Assembly: GCA_026387665.1 (NCBI GenBank)
Contig: JAPLLG010000006.1
Location: 1 to 60,611, forward strand
Origin: Nitrospirota bacterium
GTDB taxonomy: Bacteria > Nitrospirota > Nitrospiria > Nitrospirales > Nitrospiraceae
Reading direction: 5' to 3'
DNA: 60,611 nucleotides
In this document: positions 1-16,122 of the stretch, piece by piece
Numbering within the stretch: position 1 is the stretch's first letter
Layout of the letters: every line of letters starts with the position of its first letter
The notes under the pieces: generated by a model
The model's database searches: none
Seen by the model: only the letters and a program-made list of their open reading frames with translations
Told to the model about the DNA's origin: nothing
Program-made: the position numbers and the translations under genes

Positions 1-1
1 C

Positions 2-241
2 ATGACCGATGTGCCGCCAGGCACCTATAAACTCGTCATCTGGCATCCCTATATCCGTACCACGACCGAGCAAATCGTCACCATCGGCCCGAAGGGGGCC
101 GTGCAGGCCAATATCGCAGTCCCGGCCCCAACCGGACGGCTTTACGCCAACGAGGTGATGGATCATGCGTATACCCGCTATAACGTGACCGAGGAAACGA
201 AAAAAGAAATCGATCCGCTGGTCCACAAGCAGGACCACTGA
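2..241 (+). CDS. C-terminal end of a carboxypeptidase-regulatory-like (Ig-fold) protein, partial
   Basis: This open frame runs in from the left edge and ends with TGA, so only about the last 79 residues are present. The segment DVPPGTYKLVIWHP is the typical beta-hairpin of carboxypeptidase regulatory-like domains, often found at the end of exported plastocyanin-like or cell-surface proteins. The first ATG lies one base from the edge and is probably internal. No catalytic residues are visible. The function of the whole protein cannot be judged from this piece. Confidence 0.5.
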   Translation: MTDVPPGTYKLVIWHPYIRTTTEQIVTIGPKGAVQANIAVPAPTGRLYANEVMDHAYTRYNVTEETKKEIDPLVHKQDH

Positions 242-521
242 ACAGGGAATGACAAAGGTGCGACGCACCCATCACCATCTGGCTGAGACTGAGATACACA
301 AGTATGGCGACGCTGAAACGAGATGGTGGACAGCCCTATAGCCGGTATGCCATTAACAATGATGTGCAGAACCACATCGTGCTCACCTTGATCCACCGGA
401 CGCCCTCATGCACTGTTATTATTGTTGGCGCACCTTCCTGTTCGGCTTGAACGGTGGTAAAACAGGACTCCTGAGCGGCACTGAATATGTGGTGCTGGGC
501 GAGGATCTTTAGGGAGAGAAC

Positions 522-1157
522 ATGACAAAGTCAGAAACGGTCAGTCGCCGGATCGATGTGCTAGCTATCGGTTTATTTGGTCTCGCCGTTGGAGCCTTAA
601 CCGTTGGCATGGCACAAATCGGACAAATTCCAGCGGTGGATAAAGTGGGGGTGCTGGTCATTGCGCTGATATTTGGCGGTCTAGTGCAGGTGCTCGCCGG
701 GGTTGCCGACATTCGATACAACGAACAGCTTGGAGGGACAGCCCTCACCATGTACGGTTTCTTCTGGTTCACCGTGTCGTTAGCCCAGTTGGTCAGTATG
801 AGCACGACCTTCCATTTTGATAGCGCCCTATTTGTCCCGATCAACCTTGTGTACGTTTTCTTCTCCGCAGTCATGGTTTATTTAACCGCATACCGGTCTG
901 TTGCCTTAAGCCTCCTCCATGCCATCATCACCCTGACATTTGTCTCCACCGTCTGCATGAGGCTGAATCTGATATCGGAGACGCTTCCGGGGTTGGCTCA
1001 TCTAGCAGTCGGAATCCTCGCCTTTTATCACGCAATTGGCAGTCTCTCGCAGGCCTATACCGGCAAAGCGATTGTGCCACTTGGCCCCCCGATGCTCCAC
1101 CATCGGACACTAAGAAATGCGCAGGTGGAGTTGACAGGGTCGCTAGAAGTCAATTGA
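522..1157 (+). CDS. SatP/YaaH (GPR1/FUN34) family acetate/succinate-type membrane transporter
   Basis: The 211-residue protein has about six hydrophobic segments and the family-type stretch FGGLVQVLAGVADIRY, followed by a small-residue and aromatic-rich helix (GGTALTMYGFFWF). This matches the GPR1/FUN34/YaaH family, whose bacterial members take up acetate or succinate with protons. The start follows an AGGGAGA ribosome binding site. It stands alone just upstream of the hydrogenase-like complex, on the same strand, about 100 bp away. The substrate cannot be read from sequence. The asparagine-rich NPxPLGL signature of classical members is not obvious near the N-terminus, so a divergent family role is possible. 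Confidence 0.7.
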   Translation: MTKSETVSRRIDVLAIGLFGLAVGALTVGMAQIGQIPAVDKVGVLVIALIFGGLVQVLAGVADIRYNEQLGGTALTMYGFFWFTVSLAQLVSMSTTFHFDSALFVPINLVYVFFSAVMVYLTAYRSVALSLLHAIITLTFVSTVCMRLNLISETLPGLAHLAVGILAFYHAIGSLSQAYTGKAIVPLGPPMLHHRTLRNAQVELTGSLEVN

Positions 1158-1263
1158 ACAGGGACGTGACACGTGTCCCAACAACAATTTAGTTACTTGA
1201 ACTGTAACGCAAAGCAATCGCTGCTGGGCACAGATTTATGGGAATAGGATACATGTCAACCTT

Positions 1264-3291
1264 ATGCTTGTTCTGCTAATTGGTCTGATTTTTTGCTATG
1301 GGTCCGGCATCCTGCTTCCGTTCTGTGTCCCCCGAAAGCCACAGATCCAAGGAATGCTGGGCAGTGCCTGCTCCTCTGTGGCCAGCCTCATCGGTATCGC
1401 ATTGGGGCTCGGCGGGCTGGTCGCGGCTGAACCGCTGACGGCCTCCGTTGCATCGCTCATTCCCCTTCTCTCTTTTGCGGTCCGGCTCGATCCACTCTCC
1501 TCCTTCTTCGTCCTGACCATCTCCCTCGCGGGCCTCGCCACCTCCATCTATGCCATGAGTTATCTCAAAGAGTTCCACGGCCGGGTCTCCGTGGCCATGC
1601 TGGCAGCCTTGACGAACGGGTTCCTCCTCTCGATGATACTCGTCGTCATCGCCGACAACGGATTCTTCTTCCTCATGGCCTGGGAGCTGATGTCGCTCGT
1701 CTCCTACTTCCTCGTCGTCACAGAACATGAGAAAGCGGAGGTCCGCGACGCCGGCTTCTTCTACCTGGTCATGACCCACGTCGGCACCGCCTTTGTGGTC
1801 CTGACCTATTTGGTCCTCTTTCAATCGGCCGGATCCTTCTCCTTTGAATCCTTTCGTCATCCGGAGCAGGCCTTGCCAGACGGCATGAAGACCCTGGTTT
1901 TTCTCGCGGCCTTGATCGGCTTCGGAACCAAAGCCGGGATTGTGCCCTTGCATGGCTGGTTACCCCTTGCCCATCCGGCCGCACCCTCGCATATCTCCGC
2001 CCTCATGTCCGGCGTCATGATCAAGACCGCGATCTATGCCCTCATCCGGGTCTATTTCGATTTTCTCGGCGGACAGTTCCCCTGGTGGTGGGGCTTCACA
2101 GTCCTGCTCGTCGGAACCCTCTCCGCCCTGCTCGGTGTGATGTATGCGCTCATGGAGCACGACCTCAAGCGGCTCCTGGCATTTCACAGCGTGGAAAACA
2201 TCGGCATCATTTTGATGGGGATCGGCGCAGGGATGATCTTTCAAACCTACGGACTCACAGAGTTCGCGGCGTTGGGATTACTGGCCGCGCTCTACCACAC
2301 CATCAACCATGCCCTGTTCAAAACATTACTCTTTATGGGAGCGGGGTCACTGCTCTACGCCACCCATACGCGCAACATGGAAGAATATGGCGGACTGCTG
2401 CGGCGTATGCCCTGGACCGGTCTCTTTTTCCTCATCGGCGCCCTGTCGATCTCAGCCCTCCCTCCGACCAATGGATTCATCAGCGAATGGCTGCTGTTCC
2501 AAACGCTCTTTCTCAGCTTTCAGCTTCCGGCTCTCTTCCTCAAGCTGATGCTGCCGATTGCCGCGGCCATCTTGGCTTTGACCGGCGTCTTGGCCCTGGC
2601 CTGCTTTGCGAAAGCTTTCGGGATTTCATTTCTCGCCCTCGCAAGAAGTACCCATGCGCGCCAGGCCGAAGAAGTCCCGATCGCCATGCGGATCGCGATG
2701 GGCAGCCTCGCTCTGCTATGCGTCGGGCTAGGCTTGGCTCCCATGATTGTGGTGCCGCTCCTCGACCGGATTACCGGTCCTCTGACCGGTCTGTCAATCA
2801 GCGACAAGGTGCTGGCGCTCGATGGCTGGGCCCTGGCGCCGGTCAACATGGAATTTTCCAGTGTCTCGACGCCTATGCTGGCAGTCATGCTGCTCCTGTG
2901 CGGGCTCCTCGGCCTGGTCCTGGCCTTCCTCTTCGGTGGACAATTGGTGACTCGCTCCTACAAAACCTGGGGCTGCGGAATCACCCTCTCCCCGCGGATG
3001 GCCTACACCGCTACGGGATTTACCCAACCGATCAAGCGAGTCTTCAGCACCATCTATCAACCGACGATCAAACTTGAAACTGAATTCCTGGAAGAATCCC
3101 GCTACTTCGCCAAGCAACGAAAGTTTGAGTTTCATATCGAGCCGATTTTTGAACAGTATCTCTACGGTCCGGTGGTCCGTGTCTTTCTGGGAATCGCCGA
3201 CCGGCTGCGCATTCTTCAGGGAGGCAGTCTGCACCTCTACCTGGCCTATATTTTCGTGACGCTCGTCGTTTTGTTATTGTTCGCGGTCTAG
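1264..3291 (+). CDS. hyfB: Hydrogenase-4 component B / NuoL-type antiporter-like subunit of an Ehr-like complex
   Basis: The 675-residue polytopic membrane protein is close in length to E. coli HyfB and HycC. It carries the proton-conducting membrane-transporter domain of the NuoL/M/N family: the MAWELMSLVSYFLV helix, the HGWLPLAHPAAPSHISALMSG segment with its conserved lysine and histidine region, and HDLKRLLAFHSVENIG. It would form one ion-translocating arm of the membrane complex made with the next five genes, which are separated by only 4-71 bases. An overlapping 8-codon frame starts at 1253 behind an AGGA site and may couple translation. The ATG at 1264 keeps the first membrane helix. 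Confidence 0.9.
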   Translation: MLVLLIGLIFCYGSGILLPFCVPRKPQIQGMLGSACSSVASLIGIALGLGGLVAAEPLTASVASLIPLLSFAVRLDPLSSFFVLTISLAGLATSIYAMSYLKEFHGRVSVAMLAALTNGFLLSMILVVIADNGFFFLMAWELMSLVSYFLVVTEHEKAEVRDAGFFYLVMTHVGTAFVVLTYLVLFQSAGSFSFESFRHPEQALPDGMKTLVFLAALIGFGTKAGIVPLHGWLPLAHPAAPSHISALMSGVMIKTAIYALIRVYFDFLGGQFPWWWGFTVLLVGTLSALLGVMYALMEHDLKRLLAFHSVENIGIILMGIGAGMIFQTYGLTEFAALGLLAALYHTINHALFKTLLFMGAGSLLYATHTRNMEEYGGLLRRMPWTGLFFLIGALSISALPPTNGFISEWLLFQTLFLSFQLPALFLKLMLPIAAAILALTGVLALACFAKAFGISFLALARSTHARQAEEVPIAMRIAMGSLALLCVGLGLAPMIVVPLLDRITGPLTGLSISDKVLALDGWALAPVNMEFSSVSTPMLAVMLLLCGLLGLVLAFLFGGQLVTRSYKTWGCGITLSPRMAYTATGFTQPIKRVFSTIYQPTIKLETEFLEESRYFAKQRKFEFHIEPIFEQYLYGPVVRVFLGIADRLRILQGGSLHLYLAYIFVTLVVLLLFAV

Positions 3292-3305
3292 GAGAAGCGA
3301 GAAGG

Positions 3306-4265
3306 ATGCCGTCTCTTATTCAGTCCCTGCTGCTCGTGATCGCACAGGCCATCGTCCTGCTCTCGGTCTCGCCTTTCCTCGTGGGACTCATCCGCAAGGT
3401 GAAGGCGCGGTTCCAATGCCGACAGGGCGCCAGCGTCTTTCAACCCTATGCTGATCTGGCCAAACTCTTCAGAAAGCAGCCGGTAATCTCGTCCACCGCC
3501 TCCTGGATCTTCCCTGCCACACCCTATATTCTGTTTGCCTCCACACTTTCCGCTGGCCTGCTGGTCCCCACGTTCCTCTCACAGACCCCCCTGAACTTTG
3601 CGGGGAACATCATCGCGCTCGTCTACCTTCTGGCGCTGGGAACGTTTTTCCTAATTCTCGCAGGGCTCGATACCGGATCGGCCTTCGGCGGGATGGGCAG
3701 CAGCCGGGAAGCGCTCGTCGCATCGCTGACAGAGCCGGCCATGATCCTCTCCATCTTTGCCATTGCTTTGACCGCCGGCTCCACCAATCTCAGCACCATC
3801 GTTCATAAAACGGCGCTGCTGGAAGGAATCGTGACGGACCCCTCGCCGCATCTGATGGCGCTGGCCGCGCTCTTCATTGTAGCGCTCGCGGAAACCGGAC
3901 GGGTACCGGTCGACAATCCCGCGACCCATCTCGAACTCACCATGATCCATGAAGCGATGGTCCTGGAATATTCCGGCCGCTATCTGGCCCTCATCGAATG
4001 GGCGGCCGGCCTGAAATTAGCCGTGTTTCTCTCTCTGGTCGCCAACGTCTTTGCGCCCTGGGGCATTGCGACGACGCTCACGCCAAGCGCCATGGGAATC
4101 GGACTCGTGGTCTACCTCGTGAAGATCGCAGGGCTGGCGGTGCTGATCGGAACCATCGAGTGCATGTTTGCAAAACTACGGTTATTCCGTGTGACAGACC
4201 TCCTGGGCGTCGCCTTTATCCTGGCGCTGCTCGGACTGCTGTTCTTTTACATTCTTCGGAGCTGA
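3306..4265 (+). CDS. hyfC: Hydrogenase-4 component C / NuoH-like membrane anchor subunit
   Basis: The 319-residue membrane protein belongs to the NuoH/HycD/HyfC family, which anchors the hydrophilic module and links redox chemistry to the antiporter subunits. Visible family signatures are RQGASVFQPYADLAKLFRK near residue 40 and the acidic loop ETGRVPVDNPATHLELTMIHE followed by LEYSG near residue 200. The gene begins 14 bases after hyfB and ends 4 bases before hyfE, which supports one transcript. Length agrees with the family. In complex I the corresponding loop forms the quinone-site floor. Whether this complex uses a quinone is not shown by the sequence. Confidence 0.9.
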   Translation: MPSLIQSLLLVIAQAIVLLSVSPFLVGLIRKVKARFQCRQGASVFQPYADLAKLFRKQPVISSTASWIFPATPYILFASTLSAGLLVPTFLSQTPLNFAGNIIALVYLLALGTFFLILAGLDTGSAFGGMGSSREALVASLTEPAMILSIFAIALTAGSTNLSTIVHKTALLEGIVTDPSPHLMALAALFIVALAETGRVPVDNPATHLELTMIHEAMVLEYSGRYLALIEWAAGLKLAVFLSLVANVFAPWGIATTLTPSAMGIGLVVYLVKIAGLAVLIGTIECMFAKLRLFRVTDLLGVAFILALLGLLFFYILRS

Positions 4266-4269
4266 GCCC

Positions 4270-4935
4270 ATGCAGATCTCTCCTCACATCGGATCGCAGC
4301 TCGTGGACTTGTGTTCGGCCTTACTCCTGCTCACCTGTTTCGCCATCGTGGCGCAACGGCGGCTCTCCGCCTGCGTCGACTTGTTCGCCCTGCAGTCGGC
4401 CTTTCTCGTCCTGACGGCAGCGCTGGTGGCTTTTCTGACCGGGAACCACCATATCTACATCGCGGCAGCGCTGACCGGCGTGATCAAAGTGGTCATCATC
4501 CCGCGGGTACTCAAAAAAGTCATCGAACGGCTCAATGTCAAACGGGAACTGGTGATGAACGTCAACGTGCCGGCGGGCCTGCTGATCTGCGGCGCCCTGG
4601 TCATGCTGGCCTTCTTCATCACGCAGCCCATCATTCCGCTGGGCTTCCTGCTCACCCGCGATTCCCTGGCCATCGCCCTTGCGATCGTACTCATCGGTTT
4701 TTTCACGATGATTGCGAGGCAGAAGGCCGTGTCGCAGCTGATCGGCTTTCTCGTCATGGAAAACGGCTTGTTTCTGGGGGCGACGGCCGCTACCTACGGG
4801 ATGCCCTTGATCGTCGAACTGGGAGTCTTCTTCGACGTACTCATCGCGGCCTTGATCGCGGGGATCTATACGAATCGTTTGCAAGATGCCTTCGACAGCG
4901 TGGATACCAGCCACCTCACAGTCCTGAAAGAGTAG
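4270..4935 (+). CDS. hyfE: Hydrogenase-4 component E / NuoK-containing membrane subunit
   Basis: The 221-residue protein has about seven hydrophobic helices and resembles HyfE, whose C-terminal half is related to NuoK. The central block AALTGVIKVVIIPRVLKKVIERL is typical of the family, and buried glutamates occur in the later helices (MENGLFLGA, VELGVFFDVL). It sits 4 bases behind hyfC and 15 bases before hyfF. Its expected role is to carry part of the ion path between the anchor subunit and the two antiporter-like subunits. Confidence 0.85.
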   Translation: MQISPHIGSQLVDLCSALLLLTCFAIVAQRRLSACVDLFALQSAFLVLTAALVAFLTGNHHIYIAAALTGVIKVVIIPRVLKKVIERLNVKRELVMNVNVPAGLLICGALVMLAFFITQPIIPLGFLLTRDSLAIALAIVLIGFFTMIARQKAVSQLIGFLVMENGLFLGATAATYGMPLIVELGVFFDVLIAALIAGIYTNRLQDAFDSVDTSHLTVLKE

Positions 4936-4950
4936 TGAAGGGTTCCTGCC

Positions 4951-6486
4951 ATGATTGAAGTGCTTGTCCTCTTAATCGCCCCGCTCCTCGCGGGAGGGCT
5001 GAGCTTGATCGTGCACCGGTCCGCGCTGCTCCACGCGATCAACCTCACGAGTATGAGTCTGCTCGTGGCGGCGGAAATCCTGATCACCAGGACCGTGTTG
5101 CGAGATGGCCCCTACACAGAACTGGGACAGTTGGTCTATCTCGACGCCCTGTCGGCCTTCATTCTCTTTATCATCGGGGCAGTCGGGCTGGCCTGCTCGC
5201 TCTACATGCGCTCCTACATGGACGATCAAGTGTCGCGAGGCGTAATTGCGCCCAAACGGCTCAACCTCTTCTTTTTCCTCTTTCACATGTTCTTGCTGGC
5301 GATGGTGATTGCGACAATCGCCAACAGCGTCGGGGTCCAATGGGTGGCCATCGAGGCGACGACACTGGCCACGACCTTTCTGATCGCCTTCTGGCGGAGG
5401 CGTGAATCCTTGGAAGCCGGATGGAAATACCTCATCCTTTGTTCGGTCGGCATCTCCCTCGCGCTCTTCGGCGTGGTACTCACCTATTATTCATCCTTAC
5501 AAGTGCTGGGCGATGTCAGCGAAGCCTTGAACGTGACCCAGTTGCTGCCCGTGGCCGACCGGCTAAATCCGCATGTCCTGAAGTTGGCCTTCATCTTCAT
5601 CCTGGTCGGCTATGGCACCAAGGTGGGTCTCGTGCCCATGCATAGCTGGCTACCGGACGCCTATACCGAAGCGCCGGCTCCGGTCGTGGCGATGCTGGCG
5701 GGTGTCCTTGAAATTGTGGCGGTCTACGCGATCCTTCGTATGAGGATGATTGTCGACCACGCGGTCTCCCCGACCTTTACCGGCGGACTACTGGCCCTGC
5801 TCGGGTTTGCCTCATTTGTGACGGCCGCGTTTTTCATCCTCATCCAACACAACTACAAACGGCTATTCGCCTACTCCAGCATCGAACATATGGGGATCGC
5901 CATGATCGGATTCGGTGTCGGGGGACCGATCGGCACATTCGGCGGACTATTTCATCTGCTGAACCATGCCTTCGCCAAGTCGATGGCATTTTTTGCCGCA
6001 GGCAACATTCATCGCCGCTTTCACACGGTGGAAATCGCGCAGGTGCAGGGATTGGCCATCGCGCAGCCCTGGACGGCCATGGCCCTGATCGTCGCAGGCC
6101 TGGCCTTGTCGGCGCTGCCTCCCTTTGCCTCATTTGTCAGTGAAGTCCAAATCGTGACGGCCCTGGCCGCGCAAGGAATTCCTGGTCAGTGGCTGACCAA
6201 TAGCACCGGCATGGTGACGGTGGCCTTCTCGAATCAATTCAGCAGCCTGAGCCTCACGGGACTCTTTCTGCTCTGCTCGGTCCTTGCGTTCAGCGGCCTG
6301 CTCTACCGCATCACTGGAATGGTCTGGGGCGCCCCGCCTGAGGAAATCGTCAAGGGAGAAACCTGGACGCTCGGCCATCTGCCGATCATTGTGCTCGCTG
6401 CCGCGTTAGTGGGATTTGGGTTTTTTCTCCCTCAGCCGCTACGACAGCTCTTAGAACAGGCGACGCAGATTCTCTTGCTTCACTAG
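4951..6486 (+). CDS. hyfF: Hydrogenase-4 component F / NuoN-M-type antiporter-like subunit
   Basis: The 511-residue polytopic protein is the second antiporter-like subunit of the complex. It has the expected IEATTLATTFLIAFW helix, the functional loop GYGTKVGLVPMHSWLPDAY, the motif EAPAPVVAMLAGVLE, and HNYKRLFAYSSIEHMGIAM in mid-protein. These match HyfF and related Mrp/Nuo subunits. A conserved lysine (in GYGTKVG) and glutamate (in WVAIEATT) expected of proton channels are present, so ion translocation looks intact. It is followed after 12 bases by the large subunit gene. Confidence 0.9.
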   Translation: MIEVLVLLIAPLLAGGLSLIVHRSALLHAINLTSMSLLVAAEILITRTVLRDGPYTELGQLVYLDALSAFILFIIGAVGLACSLYMRSYMDDQVSRGVIAPKRLNLFFFLFHMFLLAMVIATIANSVGVQWVAIEATTLATTFLIAFWRRRESLEAGWKYLILCSVGISLALFGVVLTYYSSLQVLGDVSEALNVTQLLPVADRLNPHVLKLAFIFILVGYGTKVGLVPMHSWLPDAYTEAPAPVVAMLAGVLEIVAVYAILRMRMIVDHAVSPTFTGGLLALLGFASFVTAAFFILIQHNYKRLFAYSSIEHMGIAMIGFGVGGPIGTFGGLFHLLNHAFAKSMAFFAAGNIHRRFHTVEIAQVQGLAIAQPWTAMALIVAGLALSALPPFASFVSEVQIVTALAAQGIPGQWLTNSTGMVTVAFSNQFSSLSLTGLFLLCSVLAFSGLLYRITGMVWGAPPEEIVKGETWTLGHLPIIVLAAALVGFGFFLPQPLRQLLEQATQILLLH

Positions 6487-6498
6487 GGAACGACAGCC

Positions 6499-8091
6499 AT
6501 GGCAGACACGCAGTCCTATGAAAACGAACTGAAAGCGGCGTTCCCCGCCATCGTGCACACTGACACGTCGCAGGAAAACTGCTCTCAGTTTCTCGTCCCC
6601 AAGGCTCTCCTCCCTGCCATCACCCATTATCTCCATACTCAACCGGGCCTGCGCGGCAGGCTGACCGCCCTATGGGCGGTCGATCATCGCCCCCTTCGCG
6701 ACTGCTATAGCTTGCACTACCTCTTCACGCTGGAGCCGTCCCATCGCTGGGCGCTGCTGTCCACAGAACTCGCAGGGGCTGATCGATCATTCCCCTCCAT
6801 CACGCCGCACATCCATGCAGCCAAATGGTACGAGCGAGAAATTCGCGACCTGTTCGGACTGATTCCGCTGGGGCATCCGGACTTGCGACGCCTGGTCCGC
6901 CATGAGCACTGGCCTAAAGGGACACACCCGCTGAACAAAGACTTTGCCTGGGACCAGGTGATGGGACGGCAGCAAGGAGAACATCACTTCCGCCGCATTG
7001 AAGGGGAAGGGGTCTTTGAAGTGCCGGTAGGGCCGATCCATGCCGGGATTATCGAGTCAGGCCATTTTCGATTTTCCGTGGCCGGCGAGCCCATCATGCA
7101 ACTCGAACTGCATCATTTCTGGAAACATCGCGGAATCGAGAAACTGTTCGAACAGCAGGCCTTGACTGCCGCAGTTCCGTTAGCCGAACGGGTATCCGGC
7201 GATACGACAGTCGGCCATAGCCTCGCCTACTGCCAGGCGGTCGAATCCCTGCTGCAGCTGGAAGTGCCGCGCCGCGGACGCTATCTCCGGAGCCTGTTTC
7301 TTGAACTGGAACGGCTCCACAACCATCTCGGCGACATCGGCGCGATCTGCAACGATACGGCCTACGCCCTACCCCATGCCCATTGCAGCCGTATGAAAGA
7401 ACAGATCATGCAGCTCAACGACCGCTTGACCGGCTCGCGATTTCTCCGCGGCGTGAACCGGGTGGGTGGAGTTGCCATCGATCTCACGGCGGTGCAACTG
7501 ACCGAGATTGTCGCCAAACTGGACCGGGTTGAACAGGACTTTTCGGAGCTGGAATCGATCATTGCTCACAACGCCTCCCTGATCGACCGACTGGAGACCA
7601 CCGGAATCCTAACCGAGCGCACGGCGCGTGATCATGGGGTGGTGGGAGTCGTCGGGCGAGCCTCTGGTCTCGCTCAAGACCTCCGGCGCGATCGACCCTT
7701 TGCCGCCTACGACGAACTTCCCGTTAACGTCGTGACCTACCGCTACGGCGATGTCCGAGCGCGAATGCGGGTCCGGATGGATGAGATTCATGAGTCGATA
7801 CGATTAGTCAGAGAGATTCGCCTGAAGATACCGCAGGGGCCAATCTCGAAAGAAGCCAGCCGCAGCCCCCAAACAGGTGACTGGGCCCTGTCGGCCGTCG
7901 AAGGCTGGCGTGGTGAAATTCTTTACATGGTGATGGCGGGAGCAAACGGGACCATTCATCGCTGTAAGGTCCGGGACCCCTCATTCGCAAACTGGCCTGC
8001 AATCCAATGGACCGTGCTGGGAAATATCATTCCGGACTTCCCGCTCATCAATAAGAGCTTTAGCCTGTCATATGCGGGAAATGATCTGTAA
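6499..8091 (+). CDS. hyfG: HyfG/HycE-like large subunit (NuoC-NuoD fusion) lacking the NiFe-binding cysteines
   Basis: The 530-residue protein has an N-terminal 30-kDa (NuoC-like) domain containing YEREIRDLFGL near residues 111-121 and HPLNKDF near 143-149. A 49-kDa/NiFe large-subunit domain follows from about residue 170. The family frame is clear, but the N-terminal nickel motif (RxCGxC in hydrogenases) reads RVSGDTTVGH at 231-240. The C-terminal motif (DPCxxC) reads DPSFAN at 493-498. All four metal-ligand cysteines are therefore replaced, and NiFe hydrogenase activity is not expected. This is the hallmark of energy-converting hydrogenase-related (Ehr) complexes of unknown substrate. No maturation genes are seen nearby. 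Confidence 0.88.
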   Translation: MADTQSYENELKAAFPAIVHTDTSQENCSQFLVPKALLPAITHYLHTQPGLRGRLTALWAVDHRPLRDCYSLHYLFTLEPSHRWALLSTELAGADRSFPSITPHIHAAKWYEREIRDLFGLIPLGHPDLRRLVRHEHWPKGTHPLNKDFAWDQVMGRQQGEHHFRRIEGEGVFEVPVGPIHAGIIESGHFRFSVAGEPIMQLELHHFWKHRGIEKLFEQQALTAAVPLAERVSGDTTVGHSLAYCQAVESLLQLEVPRRGRYLRSLFLELERLHNHLGDIGAICNDTAYALPHAHCSRMKEQIMQLNDRLTGSRFLRGVNRVGGVAIDLTAVQLTEIVAKLDRVEQDFSELESIIAHNASLIDRLETTGILTERTARDHGVVGVVGRASGLAQDLRRDRPFAAYDELPVNVVTYRYGDVRARMRVRMDEIHESIRLVREIRLKIPQGPISKEASRSPQTGDWALSAVEGWRGEILYMVMAGANGTIHRCKVRDPSFANWPAIQWTVLGNIIPDFPLINKSFSLSYAGNDL

Positions 8092-8162
8092 ATACAGGAC
8101 GCCATCAGCGGTCAACTTTCAGCTGAAGGCAACGGCTGAAGACTGAAGGCCGAGGAGGAACC

Positions 8163-8684
8163 ATGTTTCGCATTTTAAAGAAAAGCCTGAAAACGGGAGT
8201 GGTAACAGGTCAGCATCCCGCAGCCGCGCCGTTGGCGGAAACTCCGACATCGGAGGCAAAAGACAAAGCCACACCGTTCCGATCCTCTCTGGCCTTTCGC
8301 GCGGTGGATACCGGCTCATGCAATGCCTGCGAAATGGAAATGAATGCGCTCGCGAACCCGGTCTACGACATCGAACGGTTCGGCGTTCACATCGCCGCAT
8401 CGCCGCGCCATGCAGATGCCTTGGTCGTGACGGGGCCCGTCACCATCAACATGGAACAGGCATTGAAAGACGTCTACCAACAAACACCTGACCCGAAAAT
8501 TGTCATTGCGCTCGGCGACTGCGCCATCAACTGTGGGGTCTTCAAGGGGAGCTATGCCATCACTGGTCCCGTGGACCGCCACATTCCGGTTGATGTTCGT
8601 ATTCCAGGCTGCCCGCCACGACCGGCTGAAATTCTCAATGCGCTCCAAGAATTGCGGGGAGGCACAGTCTCAAACAAGAATTGA
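8163..8684 (+). CDS. hyfI: HyfI/NuoB-like small subunit with one iron-sulfur cluster site
   Basis: The 173-residue protein is homologous to NuoB and hydrogenase small subunits. Candidate [4Fe-4S] ligands are C53 and C56 (GSCNACEME), C120 (GDCAINCG) and C150 (PGCPPRP), with an extra C124. The site of the proximal cluster next to the former active site is therefore kept although the large subunit lost its metal. The gene begins 71 bases after hyfG behind an AGGAGGAACC site. No ferredoxin-like NuoI or HyfH gene follows, so this may be the only iron-sulfur protein of the complex. The first 40 residues are poorly conserved. Confidence 0.88.
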   Translation: MFRILKKSLKTGVVTGQHPAAAPLAETPTSEAKDKATPFRSSLAFRAVDTGSCNACEMEMNALANPVYDIERFGVHIAASPRHADALVVTGPVTINMEQALKDVYQQTPDPKIVIALGDCAINCGVFKGSYAITGPVDRHIPVDVRIPGCPPRPAEILNALQELRGGTVSNKN

Positions 8685-9001
8685 TCCGCCCAAACCTCAT
8701 TTCCTTCCTCACGACTCACTCCACACCTGACTGCGCCCCTTCACCTCCGTCAGTAGAGCGACTTCGCACCCTGCCCCCTGTGCGGTATCGCTCATCCCAT
8801 GCTTACTCCTTTCTTCTCATCTCCCTGGCAATCCGTCAGCCTCAAAAACCGCACGGATTATCGAGGGATTTTCGCAATTCCCACTCTGAAGGACTCGCGA
8901 CAACGAGATGCTCCAGGGGGCATCAGTTGTGCACAGAACTATCAGTACCGTGGCGAAGCCACACAAAATGAGCGGACAATCCTGAACGACAGAATACGGA
9001 G
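8685..9001. other. Intergenic region between hyfI and the SulP locus
   Basis: This stretch of about 317 bases shows no convincing gene. Short open frames cross it but have no family resemblance. A hairpin (GATGCTCC paired with GGGGCATC) lies at 8907-8924 without a T-run. The last bases before 9002 provide an ACGGAG ribosome binding site. A promoter for the transporter pair is expected here, but no clear -35/-10 pair was recognised. Confidence 0.4.
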
Positions 9002-9175
9002 ATGACCATGCCGCCGTTACTGCGGACAGTCCTGGCAGAGACGACCGATTTGCTAGGCAGGACAATCAAGATGGCGATCATCGTGTCCCTCCTTACGTTC
9101 GCGCTGATACTCATCGGCTGGTTCTTCTCATCCAGCCTGCCCTACCAAGCATTATTCATACTCAATGGCCGATAG
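9002..9175 (+). CDS. 57-residue single-pass membrane microprotein coupled to the SulP transporter
   Basis: An ATG behind ACGGAG opens a 57-codon frame with a basic/amphipathic N-terminus and one strong membrane helix (about residues 24-42: MAIIVSLLTFALILIGWFF). Its stop lies inside the SulP gene, whose ATG at 9165 overlaps it by 11 bases. That arrangement is typical of translational coupling. Without this frame the SulP start would have no good ribosome binding site of its own. No family is recognised. A role as a small transporter partner is an inference from the overlap alone. Confidence 0.5.
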   Translation: MTMPPLLRTVLAETTDLLGRTIKMAIIVSLLTFALILIGWFFSSSLPYQALFILNGR

Positions 9176-10982
9176 AAACCGGCCGCCTTGGAGAAACCGC
9201 ATGCCGCCACAGCCCCCCCTGCCCCTCGCAATAGATAAACCCCAGAACGGAATACGAGGCCTGAAACATTGGCGCTACGACCTACTGGCCGGGCTGCAGG
9301 TAGCACTCATTGGGCTTCCCCTCTCGCTGGGTATCGCCGTGGCCTCCGGCGCACCTCCCATCACCGGTGTAATCTCGGCGATCATCGCCGGGTTGATCTT
9401 CCCCTTCCTCGGTGGCGCCTATGTGACGATCAGCGGGCCGGCCGCCGGCCTGGCTCCTGCGCTGCTGGCCGGCATGATTGCGCTCGGCCATGGAGACTTA
9501 GCTGTAGGGTATCCTCTCTTGCTGGTGGCGATTTGTCTGACCGGCGTCATCCAGGTACTGTTGAGTCTCTTTCGCGCCGGGAGATTCGCCCTCTATTTCC
9601 CCATCTCGGTGGTTGAAGGAATGTTGAGCGCCATCGGCATGCTCATCATCATCAAGCAAATTCCCCAACTTCTGGGTGACCAACTTCCACCCATTAAATC
9701 TATTCCGGCAGCCCTCATGGCGATCCCCCACGATATCGCCGAGATGAATCCGGAGATTTTTCTCGTCGGAAGTCTTTCGCTGGCCCTCCTCTTTTTTCTC
9801 TCCAGCAGAACCGAACGATGGGCCACGCTCATCCCTGCCCCCCTCCTGGTCGTCAGCCTGGGCGGCCTAGCCAGCTGGCTCCTGCAACTCCCGCAAGAAT
9901 ACCTGGTCCATGTGCCCCTCGATATTTTTCAACATGGCATTCACTTCCCTCACTTTGCTGAAGCCTGGCAGAGTCACGACTTGTGGATGGCGTTCCTCGT
10001 TACGATCGTCACCCTCACCCTCATCGATGGCACCGAGTCGTTGGCCACGATCGCCGCGGTCGATAAGATCGATCCCTTCCATCGAAAATCTGACCCCAAC
10101 GTGACCTTGCGGGCCATGGGCATCTCCAACATCCTCTCCAGTCTGGCCGGCGGCTTGACGATTATCCCAGGCGGCGTGAAAAGCACGACCAATATCATGG
10201 CCGGGGGACGAACCCTCTGGGCCAACTTTTACTATGCCTGCTGCCTCGCACTCATCTTGTGGTTCGGCACAAAGCTCATCAATCTGATTCCCCTCACAGT
10301 CCTGGCGGCGTTGCTCATCTGGGTCGGATGGCAACTCTGCGCGCCCAGGATCTTCTGGAAGATCCTCGAAATCGGCAAGGAACAGCTGTTGATCGCGGTG
10401 GTCACCGTCGTGGTCACCTTGTACACCTCGGACCTGCTGGAAGGCATGGCGCTTGGCACGCTCACAAAGATCATTGTGCTCTGCGTTGACCTGATCCAGG
10501 CTTCAGCCCAGGAAGCCCCAACCGAAACGTCGTTCTTCACACGATTCACCAGGCGACTGTCGGCTGCGCTCGTCGAGTTATTCAGCAATCCCGTCATCCG
10601 AATCGGAGACGGCCGCGGCTCTCGCGTGCGGTACAGTGTGATGACCGTGCCGACCAGCGCGATACGGGGTACGGTCGGAGAGATGAAGAACCCCTATAAA
10701 ATCTACCTCTCATCGGTCACCTGCATGAATCTGATGAAACTCGATAAGGCCCTCAACGAAACGCTCGTCGTTCCTGCACACTCCAAAGCCAACTTCTTGA
10801 TCATCTTGGCGGGACAGGTGATCGACCACACGTCGATGGAGTATTTGCACCATTTCCAGGATCAATGCATCGCGGCCGGCCATACCTGCGCCATCGTGGG
10901 CATGGATCATTTTCGCTCGTTCTCTGACCATGTGTTGGCCTACCGCGTGAATCCTCCACACAGCCTTATGGCCTTTACCTAA
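9165..10982 (+). CDS. SulP family inorganic anion (possibly bicarbonate or sulfate) transporter
   Basis: The 605-residue protein has the SulP/SLC26 transmembrane domain: LAGLQVALIGLPLSLGIAVASG at the start, the signature TISGPAAGLAP, and TESLATIAAVDKIDPFHRKSDPN with GISNILSSLAGGLTIIPGG later. The last 110 residues form a soluble region with STAS-like features (SMEYLHHFQDQC, CAIVGMDHFRSF). Bacterial relatives carry bicarbonate, sulfate or dicarboxylates. Its position beside an ion-translocating complex makes bicarbonate attractive, but this is not provable from sequence. The first 20 residues are Pro/Arg-rich, and a later start at the MPPQPP methionine is possible. Confidence 0.87.
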   Translation: MADRNRPPWRNRMPPQPPLPLAIDKPQNGIRGLKHWRYDLLAGLQVALIGLPLSLGIAVASGAPPITGVISAIIAGLIFPFLGGAYVTISGPAAGLAPALLAGMIALGHGDLAVGYPLLLVAICLTGVIQVLLSLFRAGRFALYFPISVVEGMLSAIGMLIIIKQIPQLLGDQLPPIKSIPAALMAIPHDIAEMNPEIFLVGSLSLALLFFLSSRTERWATLIPAPLLVVSLGGLASWLLQLPQEYLVHVPLDIFQHGIHFPHFAEAWQSHDLWMAFLVTIVTLTLIDGTESLATIAAVDKIDPFHRKSDPNVTLRAMGISNILSSLAGGLTIIPGGVKSTTNIMAGGRTLWANFYYACCLALILWFGTKLINLIPLTVLAALLIWVGWQLCAPRIFWKILEIGKEQLLIAVVTVVVTLYTSDLLEGMALGTLTKIIVLCVDLIQASAQEAPTETSFFTRFTRRLSAALVELFSNPVIRIGDGRGSRVRYSVMTVPTSAIRGTVGEMKNPYKIYLSSVTCMNLMKLDKALNETLVVPAHSKANFLIILAGQVIDHTSMEYLHHFQDQCIAAGHTCAIVGMDHFRSFSDHVLAYRVNPPHSLMAFT

Positions 10983-11158
10983 CGGCGCACAGCGTTTACG
11001 CCAGGGACAAGTAAACATACCTGGCACAGACGCTCACAAAATCTTCGATGCGGTTGCGGCTGATTCACGGAGACCCACGGGCGAAAAATAAAACGAGGTA
11101 ACTGTATCCAGATGGACCGCAATTCAATAGATCCAGGTCATTAACAGGAGAACTCTCT

Positions 11159-12358
11159 ATGCAAGCCAGTATCTTTGTCACAGATGATGAGCCCTCACTG
11201 CGCAACGCGCTGGTAAAGCGACTGTCCAAGCGCCAGCATCGAGTCAGATCCTTCCAATCCGGAGATGAATTATTGGCTGCCGTCGAGCAGGACATTCCCG
11301 ACCTCATCCTCCTCGACCTCAAGATGCCGGGCATGACAGGAATCGAAACTCTGGAAGCGCTTCGCACGAAAGCGCGGGATGCGGTGGTGATCATCCTGAC
11401 CGCCTATGGAACCGTCGAAGAAGCGGTCGAGTCCATGAAGCTGGGGGCCTATGATTTCCTCATCAAGACCGTGGACCTCGAAGGAGTGGAGCCAGTCGTG
11501 AACCGGGCATTAGAGGGCTTGATGCTGCGCCGCCGCGTGGCCTATGCCGTCGAGCATGAGGCGGATCAATACAAGTTAGACGGGCTCGTCGCGAACAGCG
11601 TGTCGAGGAAACAGCTCCTCACGCAGATACGAGAAGCGGCGCAAAACCCCAAGGCGACCGTCTTCCTCATGGGGGAAATTGGGGCAGGCAAAGAATTTCT
11701 GGCTCACGTCATTCACCATAATAGTGCGCGGGCAACTGGCCCATTCGTGAAGATTAATTGCACGGCCCTTGCGCCAGACCTGTTTGAGCGCGAGCTGTTC
11801 GGATATGAACGTGGGGCCTTCGAGGGAGCAGAACAACGGAAACTCGGCTTGCTCGAACAGGCAGAAACCGGCACGTTATTTATCGACGAGGTTGGCGATC
11901 TCGATATGGCCATGCAGGCGAAGCTCCTGCGGGTGCTGCAGGATCGATTCTTCCGTCGTGTCGGAGGCGCTGAAGACCTAAGCGGGGATTTCCGTATCCT
12001 TGTCGCGTCACACCGGGACCTCAAGCAGGAGGTGACGGCAGGACGCTTTCGGGATGATCTCTACTTCCGTCTCAATACCATGGCCTGTCTCGTCCCCTCG
12101 CTCCGGAACGGCGTTGAAGACATCGTGCCTCTCAGTAAACGGTTCATGGCAAAGTCCGGCCTTGAGCTCGACAAGGAACTAATTGAGATCGATCAAGCCG
12201 CCATCGCCATTCTGGAGCGCTACACCTTTCCTGGCAATGTACGAGAACTGCAGAACGTCATTGAACGGGCGATGATGTTGTGCAAAGGCAAAATTCTGAC
12301 GGCTGGGGACCTACCATGGGAATTACGGGACACAACGGCCCCGGCGCCGGTCGCATAG
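11159..12358 (+). CDS. Degenerate NtrC-type response regulator (REC-AAA+, no HTH)
   Basis: The 399-residue protein has a receiver domain with phosphoacceptor D53, T81 and K103. An AAA+ sigma-54 activator domain follows, with Walker A GEIGAGKE (172-179) and Walker B GTLFIDEVGD. The sigma-54 contact loop, normally GAFTGA, reads GAFEGA at 219-224. The protein stops soon after the AAA+ domain (…LRDTTAPAPVA), so the usual Fis-type DNA-binding domain is absent. It is clearly a paralogue of the intact regulator at 14385, sharing the run GAYDFLIKTVDL. A good AGGAG site precedes the start. It may act as a phosphate sink or partner rather than a transcription activator. Confidence 0.85.
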   Translation: MQASIFVTDDEPSLRNALVKRLSKRQHRVRSFQSGDELLAAVEQDIPDLILLDLKMPGMTGIETLEALRTKARDAVVIILTAYGTVEEAVESMKLGAYDFLIKTVDLEGVEPVVNRALEGLMLRRRVAYAVEHEADQYKLDGLVANSVSRKQLLTQIREAAQNPKATVFLMGEIGAGKEFLAHVIHHNSARATGPFVKINCTALAPDLFERELFGYERGAFEGAEQRKLGLLEQAETGTLFIDEVGDLDMAMQAKLLRVLQDRFFRRVGGAEDLSGDFRILVASHRDLKQEVTAGRFRDDLYFRLNTMACLVPSLRNGVEDIVPLSKRFMAKSGLELDKELIEIDQAAIAILERYTFPGNVRELQNVIERAMMLCKGKILTAGDLPWELRDTTAPAPVA

Positions 12359-12449
12359 GACCGCAATCCTCATGACGGTTTGCCCTGAGTTCCTCTTTTG
12401 ACAATCCCACGTCTCGATCTTAGGATACGCTGACCACCCTGGAGCGATT

Positions 12450-14381
12450 ATGCGGGAGTACCTGATCCGCCTCTTCAACAATCTCCCGATCGAGCGAAAA
12501 CTGCTGCTGGTCTCCGTCATCCCACTAGCTGCCCTCATTCTGCTCAGCGCCGTCACATACAAGAGCGTCCAAACGGTCGAGCAAGATGAGGAGCAACTCA
12601 GCCGTTTATACCTGACGCAGAAGTCAGCCGCCCAGTACATGCGGCTGATCGTCGACCTTGAAACGAGTTTTCGCGGCTATGTCCTAACGCTTCAGAGCCC
12701 CTACCTGCGCCCATTCCGCACGGCACAAGAAGGCATTTTCTCTGTGGGAGAGGAACTCACTAGGCTCGTCTCCGATGACGCCCCCCACCGGCCCATTCTC
12801 ATGGAAGTCCAGTCGCTGGTGAAACAGCTCATCATTGAGAAAGTCGATCTCATCGAAGCGGCAAAGACAGGGCACCGTGAAAAAGCGCTCCACTATATCG
12901 AAGATGGCCGCGGTCGGACGATCATGGTCCGAATTCGCACATTAATGGTGACGTTCGACCAGTCCGAACAGCAACGGGTGGTGACGAGGCTGGGGCAACT
13001 GAGTCAAGACCGAACCACCACACTCATGGTGATATTAGTCGGGGGGATTCTCACCCTGGGGCTCGTGGCCTCCATGCTCTACCTCATTGCCCGCTCGATC
13101 GCCGACCCGTTAGTCAGTTTGGCCAAAGCAGTCGGATCCTCGCCGACATGGGCTCTCTCCAGCATCCCCGCCCTTGAGCGAAAAGACGAGATCGGCTACC
13201 TAACGAGGGTGATGCACCAGATGGGGGTGCAAATTCAGAGTCATCTCGAACAGGTCGAGCGTTCGGAAGCGGCGCTCCGCGTACTCAATGATAATCTCTC
13301 CGCATCGGAATCGAAGTACCGTGGACTGGTGGACAACGCCCCCTTCGGCATTTTCACGACCAGCGGCACAAAAATCACCTTCAGCAACCGCTATAACCAA
13401 ACCCTCGCGGGACTTGACCCGGATCACGTCACCGACCCGGATACGTTTCGCCAATGGATTCATCCGGAAGATCGCGAACGGGTCCTGTCCGAGTTTGCTC
13501 AAGCGGTGGAGACCGTCCTCCCCTACGAGACGGTCTTTCGCTTTCTTCATGAGAACGGCTCGGTGCGGAAGGTATTGAGTCGCCGGATTCCCATCGAGCG
13601 AGGGACGACCCACACGCCCGTTTATATCGGATTCAATATCGACATCACGGCGCTGGATCAGATGCAGACCCGCCTCAGTCGCGCCGAGCGACTAGCCACA
13701 CTGGGCCAGGTGGCGGCCGGCATTGCCCATGAAATCAGGAACCCGCTGGTGGGGATCGGGGCCAACGCGTTTCTCCTCCTGGATGAATTTGACGTATCGG
13801 ACCCGCGGCATGCCGATCTGGAAATGATTTTAAAAGAAACCAAACGGCTGGATCGCATCGTCAATCAAATCGTCGATTATGCCCGTCCGCGGGAACTCGC
13901 GCCGGAGCTCTGCCCGTTGAGTGATCTGCTCGACGAAGTCATCAAGTTACTCGATTCGACCCTCATCGCCAAACACCTGACAGTCGCGCGCGTGCTCCCG
14001 CCCACCCTGGCCAGGCTCCAGGCCGATCGCGACCAAATCAAACAAGTGCTCTTGAACGTCTTTCAGAATGCGATTGACGCCTCCCAGGATGGAACCGCCA
14101 TTGACGTGACCGCCTTCGACCTCCCACGCGACCAGCAAGCAGGCATCGTGGTTCGGATAACGGATCATGGGGTTGGGATTCCCGGTGAAGCGCTCACGCA
14201 CGTGTTTGAGCCATTTTTCACCAGAGGGAAGAGGCACGGCACGGGATTGGGACTCGCGATCTGCCGGAACATCATCGAGAGCCATGGGGGAGACATCCAG
14301 ATCACCAGCGAAGTCGGGAAAGGGACGAGCGTCAGCATCTGGCTCCCGCTCCGCCAAGAATTTCAATTCGTCGAGGGATAA
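12450..14381 (+). CDS. CHASE3-PAS sensor histidine kinase
   Basis: The 643-residue membrane kinase begins with a transmembrane helix (residues 17-36). A periplasmic CHASE3-like sensor (ETSFRGYVLTLQSPYLRPFR, 71-90) and a second membrane helix near 191-214 follow. Then come a HAMP-like linker, a PAS domain (about 287-405), HisKA with phosphorylated H427 in GIAHEIRNPL, and a HATPase with DHGVGIPG and GTGLGLAI. It lies between two NtrC-like regulators and ends 3 bases before the second, so the second is its likely partner. The first is probably a co-target. The signal it senses is unknown. Confidence 0.9.
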   Translation: MREYLIRLFNNLPIERKLLLVSVIPLAALILLSAVTYKSVQTVEQDEEQLSRLYLTQKSAAQYMRLIVDLETSFRGYVLTLQSPYLRPFRTAQEGIFSVGEELTRLVSDDAPHRPILMEVQSLVKQLIIEKVDLIEAAKTGHREKALHYIEDGRGRTIMVRIRTLMVTFDQSEQQRVVTRLGQLSQDRTTTLMVILVGGILTLGLVASMLYLIARSIADPLVSLAKAVGSSPTWALSSIPALERKDEIGYLTRVMHQMGVQIQSHLEQVERSEAALRVLNDNLSASESKYRGLVDNAPFGIFTTSGTKITFSNRYNQTLAGLDPDHVTDPDTFRQWIHPEDRERVLSEFAQAVETVLPYETVFRFLHENGSVRKVLSRRIPIERGTTHTPVYIGFNIDITALDQMQTRLSRAERLATLGQVAAGIAHEIRNPLVGIGANAFLLLDEFDVSDPRHADLEMILKETKRLDRIVNQIVDYARPRELAPELCPLSDLLDEVIKLLDSTLIAKHLTVARVLPPTLARLQADRDQIKQVLLNVFQNAIDASQDGTAIDVTAFDLPRDQQAGIVVRITDHGVGIPGEALTHVFEPFFTRGKRHGTGLGLAICRNIIESHGGDIQITSEVGKGTSVSIWLPLRQEFQFVEG

Positions 14382-14384
14382 CGT

Positions 14385-15773
14385 ATGCAACTGACCATCT
14401 TTGTGACCGATGATGAACCAGCTATTCGCAATGCCATCATCAAACGACTGACGAGAAAGCAGCATCGGGTTGTCGGATTCGAGTCGGGCGACGCGCTGCT
14501 GGCCGCGCTGCCCCAAGAGATTCCCGATCTGATCCTTCTCGACCTCAAGATGCCGGGGCTCAGTGGCCTGGATACCCTCAGAAAGCTGCGTCCGCTGGCC
14601 CCCCACACTCTGGTCATCCTGCTCACGGCCTATGGCACGGTGCAAGACGCGGTCGATACCATGAAACTCGGCGCCTATGATTTCCTCATCAAAACCGTCG
14701 ATCTGGGCGCTATCGAACCAGTACTCGATCGGGCGATCGATCTCTTAAGCCTCCGCCGCCGTCTTGCCGTAGAGACGGAACACCATGGCAGTCAATATGC
14801 GCTATCCAGCCTGGAAGCCCATAGTCCAGCCATGCAACAGATTCTGTCCCAAGTCCGAGATGTCGCCGCGAATCCGAAGTCCTCGGTGCTACTCCTGGGC
14901 GAGACAGGCACGGGAAAAGAATATCTTGCTCGTGTCCTGCATCACAATGGGGCGAGGGCGGCAGGCCCCTTTATCGGCGTGAACTGCACCGCCCTCCCGC
15001 GAGAGCTGTTCGAAAGCGAACTATTCGGCTTTGAACGAGGGGCGTTCACCGGGGCCGTCCAGCGAAAGATCGGGCTGCTCGAAAAGGCGGAAAGCGGGAC
15101 TTTATTCCTCGACGAAATCGGCGACTTAGATCTGACCCTGCAAGCCAAGCTACTGCGGGTGATTCAGGAACGCACCATTCGACGGCTAGGGGGAACGAAT
15201 GATATCGGCGTCGATTTTCGCCTTATCGCCGCCACCAACCGTGATCTCAAAAAATCGGTGGCTAACGGACACTTTCGGGAAGATCTCTATTTCCGTTTAA
15301 ATGTCGTCTCCTTCGAACTGCCTCCGTTGCGGAAGCGCGTCGAGGATATTGCCCCCTTATGCCGAAGGGCGGTCATCCGATATGGCAGGGAGTTTGGAAA
15401 AGATGTCATCGATATCGAACCGGAGGCCATGGCGCTGTTGCGGACGTATGTCTATCCAGGAAACATTCGTGAGCTGCACAATATCATCGAACGGGCCATG
15501 ATCTTCTGCCATGGCACAATGCTGACCGTAGATAACCTGCCGGCCGAACTGAGGCAGAGACAGCAGCCAGTGGTCGTGAGCGTCGTGGAAGGCGAAGAAC
15601 GCTTGCTCCGGCTCGAATCGAAATTAGGGAAACAATCCCTGGCCGATATCGAGCAGGCGATCATTCAGGAGGTCCTTCGACTGTCGGACTACAACAAAAC
15701 GACTGCCGCCAGGTATCTCGGCCTCACGAGATTCGCCCTGGATCGGCGCCTCAAAAAGATCATAGAAGACTAA
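14385..15773 (+). CDS. NtrC-type sigma-54 response regulator, complete
   Basis: The 462-residue regulator has a receiver domain (D53 in LLDLKMPG), an AAA+ domain with GETGTGKE, an intact GAFTGA loop and GTLFLDEIGDLD. A C-terminal Fis-type helix-turn-helix follows at about 420-460 (LRLSDYNKTTAARYLGLTRF). It should activate sigma-54 promoters after phosphorylation by the adjacent kinase, 3 bases upstream. It is the working counterpart of the degenerate regulator at 11159. Target promoters were not identified in this window. Confidence 0.92.
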   Translation: MQLTIFVTDDEPAIRNAIIKRLTRKQHRVVGFESGDALLAALPQEIPDLILLDLKMPGLSGLDTLRKLRPLAPHTLVILLTAYGTVQDAVDTMKLGAYDFLIKTVDLGAIEPVLDRAIDLLSLRRRLAVETEHHGSQYALSSLEAHSPAMQQILSQVRDVAANPKSSVLLLGETGTGKEYLARVLHHNGARAAGPFIGVNCTALPRELFESELFGFERGAFTGAVQRKIGLLEKAESGTLFLDEIGDLDLTLQAKLLRVIQERTIRRLGGTNDIGVDFRLIAATNRDLKKSVANGHFREDLYFRLNVVSFELPPLRKRVEDIAPLCRRAVIRYGREFGKDVIDIEPEAMALLRTYVYPGNIRELHNIIERAMIFCHGTMLTVDNLPAELRQRQQPVVVSVVEGEERLLRLESKLGKQSLADIEQAIIQEVLRLSDYNKTTAARYLGLTRFALDRRLKKIIED

Positions 15774-15780
15774 CCGTCGC

Positions 15781-16101
15781 TCACGAAGGATTCGGTGACA
15801 CGAACACTAAGACTTTCAGCCGTTGGTCCGTATGGTTCTTCACTCCATGTTCCTCCCCGGCCAGCGCCATCGTCCCCTGCCCTGCACCCAGCACCCGCTT
15901 CTCTGCCCCGACCTGAAATGTCCCCTGCCCCTCAAGCACGAGATAGACTTTATCCTGCTCTCCGTGGATATGCCCCTTCTGCTCCTGCCCCGGCTCAAAA
16001 CAATAGATGTCGCAGAAGAAGCGCGGCGTCTCAAACATATTGTTCTTCTTCATCTTCTCACTACTAAACTGCTGATAGTCCGACAGATTTACGACGTTCA
16101 T
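15781..16101 (-). CDS. Small single-domain cupin protein
   Basis: The 106-residue protein has one cupin barrel. The first motif contains EPGQEQKGHIHGEQDKVYLVLEG shortened to its metal-type residues H and E, and the second motif ends in GEEHGVKNHT. Such small cupins bind a divalent metal or a small ligand, and the specific role is unknown. The start is preceded by GGAG. It is convergent with the regulator gene (7-base gap) and lies 21 bases behind the HdrB-like gene, so it may be transcribed with that gene. Confidence 0.75.
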   Translation of the reverse strand: MNVVNLSDYQQFSSEKMKKNNMFETPRFFCDIYCFEPGQEQKGHIHGEQDKVYLVLEGQGTFQVGAEKRVLGAGQGTMALAGEEHGVKNHTDQRLKVLVFVSPNPS

Positions 16102-16122
16102 GCGCCAACTCCTTCAGGCAGG

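Follow-up and report, generated by a model that had tools for sequence, protein, structure and literature searches.

The window analysed here, a 60,611-nucleotide stretch of DNA, is the entire contig C6 (JAPLLG010000006.1) of the genome of a Nitrospira-type autotrophic nitrifier in the Nitrospirota (assembly GCA_026387665.1; 2.64 Mb, 99.8% complete), and positions 1264–8684 of its forward strand encode an Ehr complex, whose six subunits relate it to hydrogenase-4 and to respiratory complex I. The six genes are intact, all lie on the + strand and are separated by gaps of 4–71 bp. They encode, in order, the NuoL/antiporter-like subunit HyfB (1264–3291; NF005086, 739 bits, above the cut-off of 667), the NuoH-like subunit HyfC (3306–4265; PF00146), the NuoK-like membrane subunit HyfE (4270–4935; NF008556, 101.6 bits, cut-off 136), the NuoM/N-like antiporter subunit HyfF (4951–6486; PF00361, 192 bits), the fused NuoC–NuoD/HyfG-like large subunit EhrL (6499–8091), which lacks the ligands of the [NiFe] site, and the NuoB/HyfI-like small subunit EhrS (8163–8684), which has four cluster cysteines and no ferredoxin domain. 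Pfam and NCBIfam profile searches agree on these families, in keeping with a preliminary description of this DNA that had listed two antiporter-like subunits, a NuoH-like and a NuoK-like subunit as intact. Subunits of the group 4 hydrogenase/complex I type are encoded together, as in Ehr, and genes for NuoE, NuoF, NuoG or NuoI were not found in the operon.

Ehr itself is already known, and the present locus adds another member. It has been described in Nitrospirales, where about half of the genomes carry it and its job is unknown (PMC12342949; see also PMC10284858, on thermophilic comammox bacteria, and PMC12542776), and in Nitrospira moscoviensis it is not induced by H2 (PMC12342949). Ehr also occurs in many other phyla. 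The locus is no chance occurrence: across the phylum, 176 of 295 genomes have orthologues, and the residues that replace the nickel ligands are conserved. Within the source organism's own genus, however, Ehr is patchy, with 10 carriers among 32 genomes, the source genome included. The source genome encodes two further NuoD-type proteins, and a search of it for PF00374 proteins besides the Nuo and Ehr large subunits found none.

The four cysteines that hold the [NiFe] centre of group 4 hydrogenases, contributed by an RxCGxC motif and a C-terminal CxxC, are all absent from EhrL, where the aligned residues are S233, T236, S524 and G527; the preliminary description had likewise seen a large subunit devoid of nickel ligands. 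Its assignment of RVSGDTTVGH (EhrL 231–240; 7189–7218, + strand) as the counterpart of RxCGxC holds in the alignment. Its second motif, DPSFAN (EhrL 493–498; 7975–7992, +), is conserved but was mistaken for the counterpart of DPCxxC, which lies elsewhere: in a phmmer alignment with formate hydrogenlyase HycE (7z0s), DPSFAN pairs with RAATYANW, and the LDPCYSC of HycE pairs with FSLSYAG at the extreme C-terminus of EhrL. The C-terminal ligand motif therefore corresponds to NKSFSLSYAGND (EhrL 518–529; 8050–8085, +). Relatives that bear nickel ligands, from Bacillota, a Planctomycetota bin and a Mycoplasmatota bin, have RICGxC and NKSFELCY(S/A)C, and S524 and G527 are the matching positions, since these close relatives terminate in NKSFELCYSCxD where EhrL terminates in NKSFSLSYAGND.

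Across 112 aligned sequences, all 11 nickel-type rows have cysteine in each of the four ligand columns; of the 99 ligand-less rows, 96 have S in the first column, 82 have T or S in the second, 97 have S in the third and 97 have G in the fourth. Such conservation of the replacement residues favours a maintained site over decay. The quinone-site histidine and tyrosine of the complex I 49-kDa subunit are replaced by I185 and G234, as they are in 99 of 99 ligand-less rows, so the pocket is no standard quinone reductase site either; with no NADH module and no quinone pair, the complex is not complex I. As judged from the alignment, a conserved S/T/S/G pocket has taken the place of the [NiFe] site in EhrL. 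The AlphaFold model of EhrL is nearest to HycE (7z0s; TM score 0.88), followed by E. coli NuoCD, and has low confidence at residues 137–161, 178–187 and 520–530; because the last of these spans the C-terminal motif, that part of the pocket was assessed from sequence only.

A large-subunit phylogeny had been proposed as a check in the preliminary description, and it places EhrL within a set of 21 Nitrospirota Ehr rows (support 100) that includes N. moscoviensis, with Nitrospira and Nitrospirae metagenome-assembled genomes as the nearest named relatives. Nickel-bearing rows group with HycE and HyfG, apart from the Nitrospirota set. The tree was built by a quick method and midpoint-rooted; one wrongly extracted row (L148_ownNuoD, branch length 9.9) is disregarded, and because the E. 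coli NuoCD sequence is truncated and has a long branch, nothing is drawn from the rooting. A hydrogenase with alternative ligands is thus supported neither by the tree nor by the residues. Together with the lost ligands and the intact pump residues, the tree sustains the earlier view of an Ehr-type machine that may couple an as yet unidentified reaction to ion transport.

The Ehr loci of N. moscoviensis and of thermophilic comammox bacteria (PMC12342949, PMC10284858) resemble the present one in genes, gene order and the absence of [NiFe] ligands. EhrL of N. moscoviensis is 73% identical to that of the source genome, and the flanks differ: a kinase/regulator pair lies directly upstream of the N. 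moscoviensis operon, whereas the present operon has a SatP-type gene upstream and a SulP gene downstream. E. coli formate hydrogenlyase/hydrogenase-3 and hydrogenase-4 (HycE, 7z0s; HyfBCEFGI) share the fold, the subunit types and counterparts of HyfB, HyfC, HyfE and HyfF, but Ehr lacks the [NiFe] cysteines as well as HyfA, HyfD and HyfH, and has FSLSYAG in place of LDPCYSC. Complex I (NuoBCD-H-K-L-M) has ion-pathway residues and N2-type cluster ligands in common with Ehr, which differs from it in lacking NuoEFG and NuoI and in carrying Ile and Gly at the quinone His and Tyr.

In the membrane arm, the key Glu, Lys and His residues of the antiporter-like and NuoH-like subunits are retained (E141, K223, H345, H349, K353 and E408 in HyfB; E135, K224 and E398 in HyfF; R134, E135, E143, D203, E210, E216 and E221 in HyfC), as would be expected of a complex I-type ion pump. 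In EhrS, the four cysteines noted previously are C53, C56, C120 and C150; they are invariant in all sampled Nitrospirota and probably ligate a single N2-type cluster. No CxxCxxCxxxC ferredoxin-type protein was found within window positions 1–16000 or on contig C1 of the same genome. The absence of a ferredoxin subunit, which the preliminary description had singled out, is therefore real, but as a peculiarity of this locus it has to be rejected, since it is usual throughout the ligand-less family: a ferredoxin domain is present in the small subunit of 7 of 9 nickel-type members and of 4 of 157 ligand-less ones, in counts that ignore shared ancestry.

The genes upstream of HyfB in relatives form a set with wider conservation than that of the transporters. 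It comprises two proteins of the carbon monoxide dehydrogenase/acetyl-CoA synthase epsilon type (PF02552; E1 and E2), a gamma/alpha protein derived from a 2-oxoacid:ferredoxin oxidoreductase (OFOR), and EXP310, an exported protein of about 310 residues with cupredoxin-like H/C/H/M motifs, whose gene often adjoins HyfB. Genes for OFOR or pyruvate:ferredoxin oxidoreductase (POR) lie near Ehr in 17 of 56 genomes of Nitrospiria and relatives, spread over five family-level groups (the window's family 11/42, f5 1/1, f6 2/2, f9 1/2 and f21 2/3; the denominator of 56 takes in four further related families), against 0 of 36 other Nitrospirota. These counts ignore shared ancestry and come from sampled spans that vary between genomes; the chance expectation, a hand estimate based on how many OFOR loci the source genome has, is a few percent. 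In one genome (G172), a full OFOR consisting of POR_N, POR, a thiamine pyrophosphate (TPP)-binding subunit and a CO_dh-type subunit lies directly upstream of HyfB. E1 and E2 represent distinct paralogous lines common to the window's family and to another sampled locus (L160), and a PF02552 subunit also occurs in each of two OFOR operons of the reductive tricarboxylic acid (TCA) cycle type in the source genome. The Ehr-linked proteins are in this respect paralogous to a subunit of the five-subunit POR and 2-oxoglutarate:ferredoxin oxidoreductase of Hydrogenobacter and Nitrospira (PMC8115632), from which the Nitrospiraceae cassette differs in having no TPP-binding parts.

In the source genome, this set has to be traced across contigs. 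The left edge of the window is a contig end inside an EXP310 gene, of which the window holds the C-terminal end (2–241, +), so the locus continues past it. Contig C1 (13.4 kb) starts with another EXP310 rear (C1:2–238) and ends with an EXP310 front (C1:13120–13416) that immediately follows the E1, OFOR-derived and E2 genes; a further front is found at C3:448457–448753. The simplest inference is that the contigs join in the order C3–C1–C6, broken at the EXP310 repeat, and this order agrees with the arrangement in six other genomes (G006, G033, G150, G195, G255 and G283). A good σ54 promoter site was not found before HyfB in the window; a fair match precedes the cassette on C1 (position 8382), scoring 14.7 of 16.5, and G033 has one scoring 15.9, with weaker matches in the other genomes; these are suggestive only. 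At three loci (L042, L076 and L101), EXP310 lies close to a multicopper-oxidase-like gene (c44).

Eleven loci from more distant sources (candidate-phyla bacteria, a Thermoleophilia bin, unclassified bins and a Methanosarcina bin) encode an EhrS in which three or four cluster cysteines are missing, next to an EhrL that also lacks the [NiFe] ligands (L161, L169, L170, L172, L176, L178, L198, L200, L208, L223 and L165, the last with a partial EhrS). The four positions are occupied by Thr/Asp/Ser, (Cys/Glu/Thr), Asp/Gly and Asp/Asn, and sequencing error is an unlikely cause since several independent assemblies agree. EhrL of these loci keeps the SGD-type and NKS(F/L)NLSYSG pocket motifs, and the membrane arm keeps nearly all key residues. 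Jaffe et al. state, in the passages seen, that metal-binding cysteines are absent in candidate-phyla Ehr (PMC7304191); no report of cysteine loss from the small subunit was found in those passages or elsewhere in a non-exhaustive literature search.

Taken together, the corrected map of the pocket, the OFOR-type genes next to Ehr and the relatives without a cluster lead to two opposed models of Ehr: one in which it is redox-coupled to ferredoxin in the service of CO2 fixation, and one in which its reaction is non-redox. For the source organism the former is favoured, because the EhrS cysteines are kept and OFOR genes are linked to the locus: Ehr may exchange electrons, in a manner coupled to the ion-motive force, with the ferredoxin/OFOR pool that serves the reductive TCA cycle, a reading to which we give a probability of about 40%. 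Electrons would pass between the EhrS cluster and a soluble low-potential partner, postulated because a ferredoxin subunit is absent; this partner could be ferredoxin or the OFOR-type assembly encoded next to Ehr, a coupling that we hypothesise from gene linkage. The HyfC channel would link a reaction at the EhrL pocket to the movement of ions by HyfB and HyfF, and in an aerobic nitrite oxidiser the ion-motive force might be spent on making or balancing the low-potential electrons that the reductive TCA cycle needs. The ferredoxin source of this cycle in Nitrospira is unsettled (PMC6606698).

Several observations weigh against this reading. In Nitrospiraceae the cassette no longer includes the TPP-binding domain or the beta subunit and so is itself no working OFOR, OFOR genes are absent from the sampled surroundings of 31 of 42 Nitrospiraceae Ehr loci, and three genomes of the same genus have the OFOR-type cassette and no Ehr. 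Neither an electron-entry subunit nor a substrate of Ehr was identified. Ehr cannot be the sole ferredoxin source, because many nitrifiers with a reductive TCA cycle lack it, and the 2M complex I has already been proposed for this role in Nitrospira (PMC6606698); that complex is like Ehr in its proposed ferredoxin supply and differs in subunit lineage, Ehr of the source genome having two antiporter subunits and some relatives three. Finally, electron transfer through EhrS is not indispensable to the family, as the cluster-less relatives show.

It is this last point that keeps the main rival, a non-redox mechanism, in play, in which substrate binding or reaction in the remodelled EhrL pocket (for example hydration, hydrolysis, or binding of a carboxylate or bicarbonate) is coupled to ion flow by the complex I-like membrane arm. 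We consider it possible, if on balance unlikely. The cluster-less members keep the pocket and pump residues, the [NiFe] and quinone residues are both missing from EhrL, and the ferredoxin domain is rare in ligand-less complexes; on the other side, all sampled Nitrospirota, the source genome among them, retain the four EhrS cysteines, a hydratase or hydrolase site cannot be recognised, and several cluster-less members come from metagenome bins whose cells have a reduced metabolism and may form a derived side branch. A wider claim, that the chemistry of Ehr has left electron transfer, with the conserved non-metal pocket coupled to ion flow and some lineages free of redox cofactors, is somewhat more doubtful. 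If a non-redox mechanism were true, a complex I-type pump would work without electrons, which bears on how complex I is coupled to ion transport. The link to CO2-fixing enzymes and the distant relatives that have lost the iron–sulphur site too are both testable leads. A vestigial hydrogenase drifting after cofactor loss would fit the patchy occurrence in the genus, but is very improbable and already contradicted by the replacement and pump residues conserved across phyla and by the six intact genes. Electron supply to EhrL/EhrS from a formate dehydrogenase (FDH), in a formate hydrogenlyase-like or FDH–Ehr complex, has in its favour that HycE is the closest solved relative, that Ehr subunits are up in formate-grown Geobacter (PMC7894505) and that FDH–Ehr has been put forward for Margulisbacteria (PMC6349859); it is nonetheless hard to credit for the source organism, where a HycB/HyfA-type linker is absent and no formate dehydrogenase gene was recognised beside the examined Nitrospirota loci, some of whose neighbours are unannotated.

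The preliminary description had instead looked to the flanking transporters and suggested that Ehr energises, or is fed by, uptake of acetate or bicarbonate. The operon does lie, as described there, between a SatP/GPR1-FUN34-YaaH membrane protein (522–1157, +; PF01184, 47 bits; 5ys3, E 2e-7), which ends 106 bp upstream of HyfB, and a SulP anion transporter (9165–10982, +; PF00916, 185 bits), which starts 480 bp downstream of EhrS. The SulP is the sole one in the source genome and its best solved-structure match is 6ki1 (E 3e-27), a carbonic-anhydrase-like gene follows SulP in one genome (G011), DabA is encoded near Ehr in two (G305 and G283), and BicA-like SulP proteins have been annotated in N. 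marina (PMC8115632). Against this, the SulP scores 137 with the BicA model (cut-off 880) and is not assigned to BicA; the SatP-like protein matches acetate transporter models weakly (NF038013, 51.3 with a cut-off of 50; NF007941, 34 with a cut-off of 297); and, on a rough estimate, two DabA cases in 56 genomes come close to what chance would give. SulP, with its distance from EhrS and its own regulators downstream, is probably a unit separate from the Ehr operon. The proposed conservation of a SatP–Ehr–SulP order did not survive the neighbourhood survey: SulP lies beside Ehr in four genomes of one genus, SatP in eight of the 42 family genomes (four genera), and both together only in the source genome (G000) and one congener (G017). 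With its transporter neighbours largely unconserved, the carbon-uptake idea is left weakly supported and improbable.

Downstream of SulP, an NtrC-type regulator and a CHASE3/PAS histidine kinase, both identified by Pfam, and a second NtrC-type regulator, identified from its sequence, occupy 11159–15773 (+). Further along the window are a cysteine-rich CCG-domain-like protein (16123–17013) and a fumarate reductase-type iron–sulphur protein (24357–25310). Among the other loci, L035 has a carbonic-anhydrase-like protein directly after SulP (15639–16886; weak CsoSCA match, with CxDxR and RNxG motifs), and in L239, from a non-Nitrospiraceae genome, the stretch upstream of Ehr (6023–12116) encodes NuoL-like, DabA (PF10070, 892 bits) and P-II-like proteins. 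Two loci (L116 and L128) each hold a tandem pair of Ehr operons of differing types. A second HyfF-like gene is found in thirteen relatives (L037, L038, L042, L045, L046, L048, L088, L089, L091 and L102–L105), giving three antiporter-type subunits, which resembles the extra pump of the 2M complex I.

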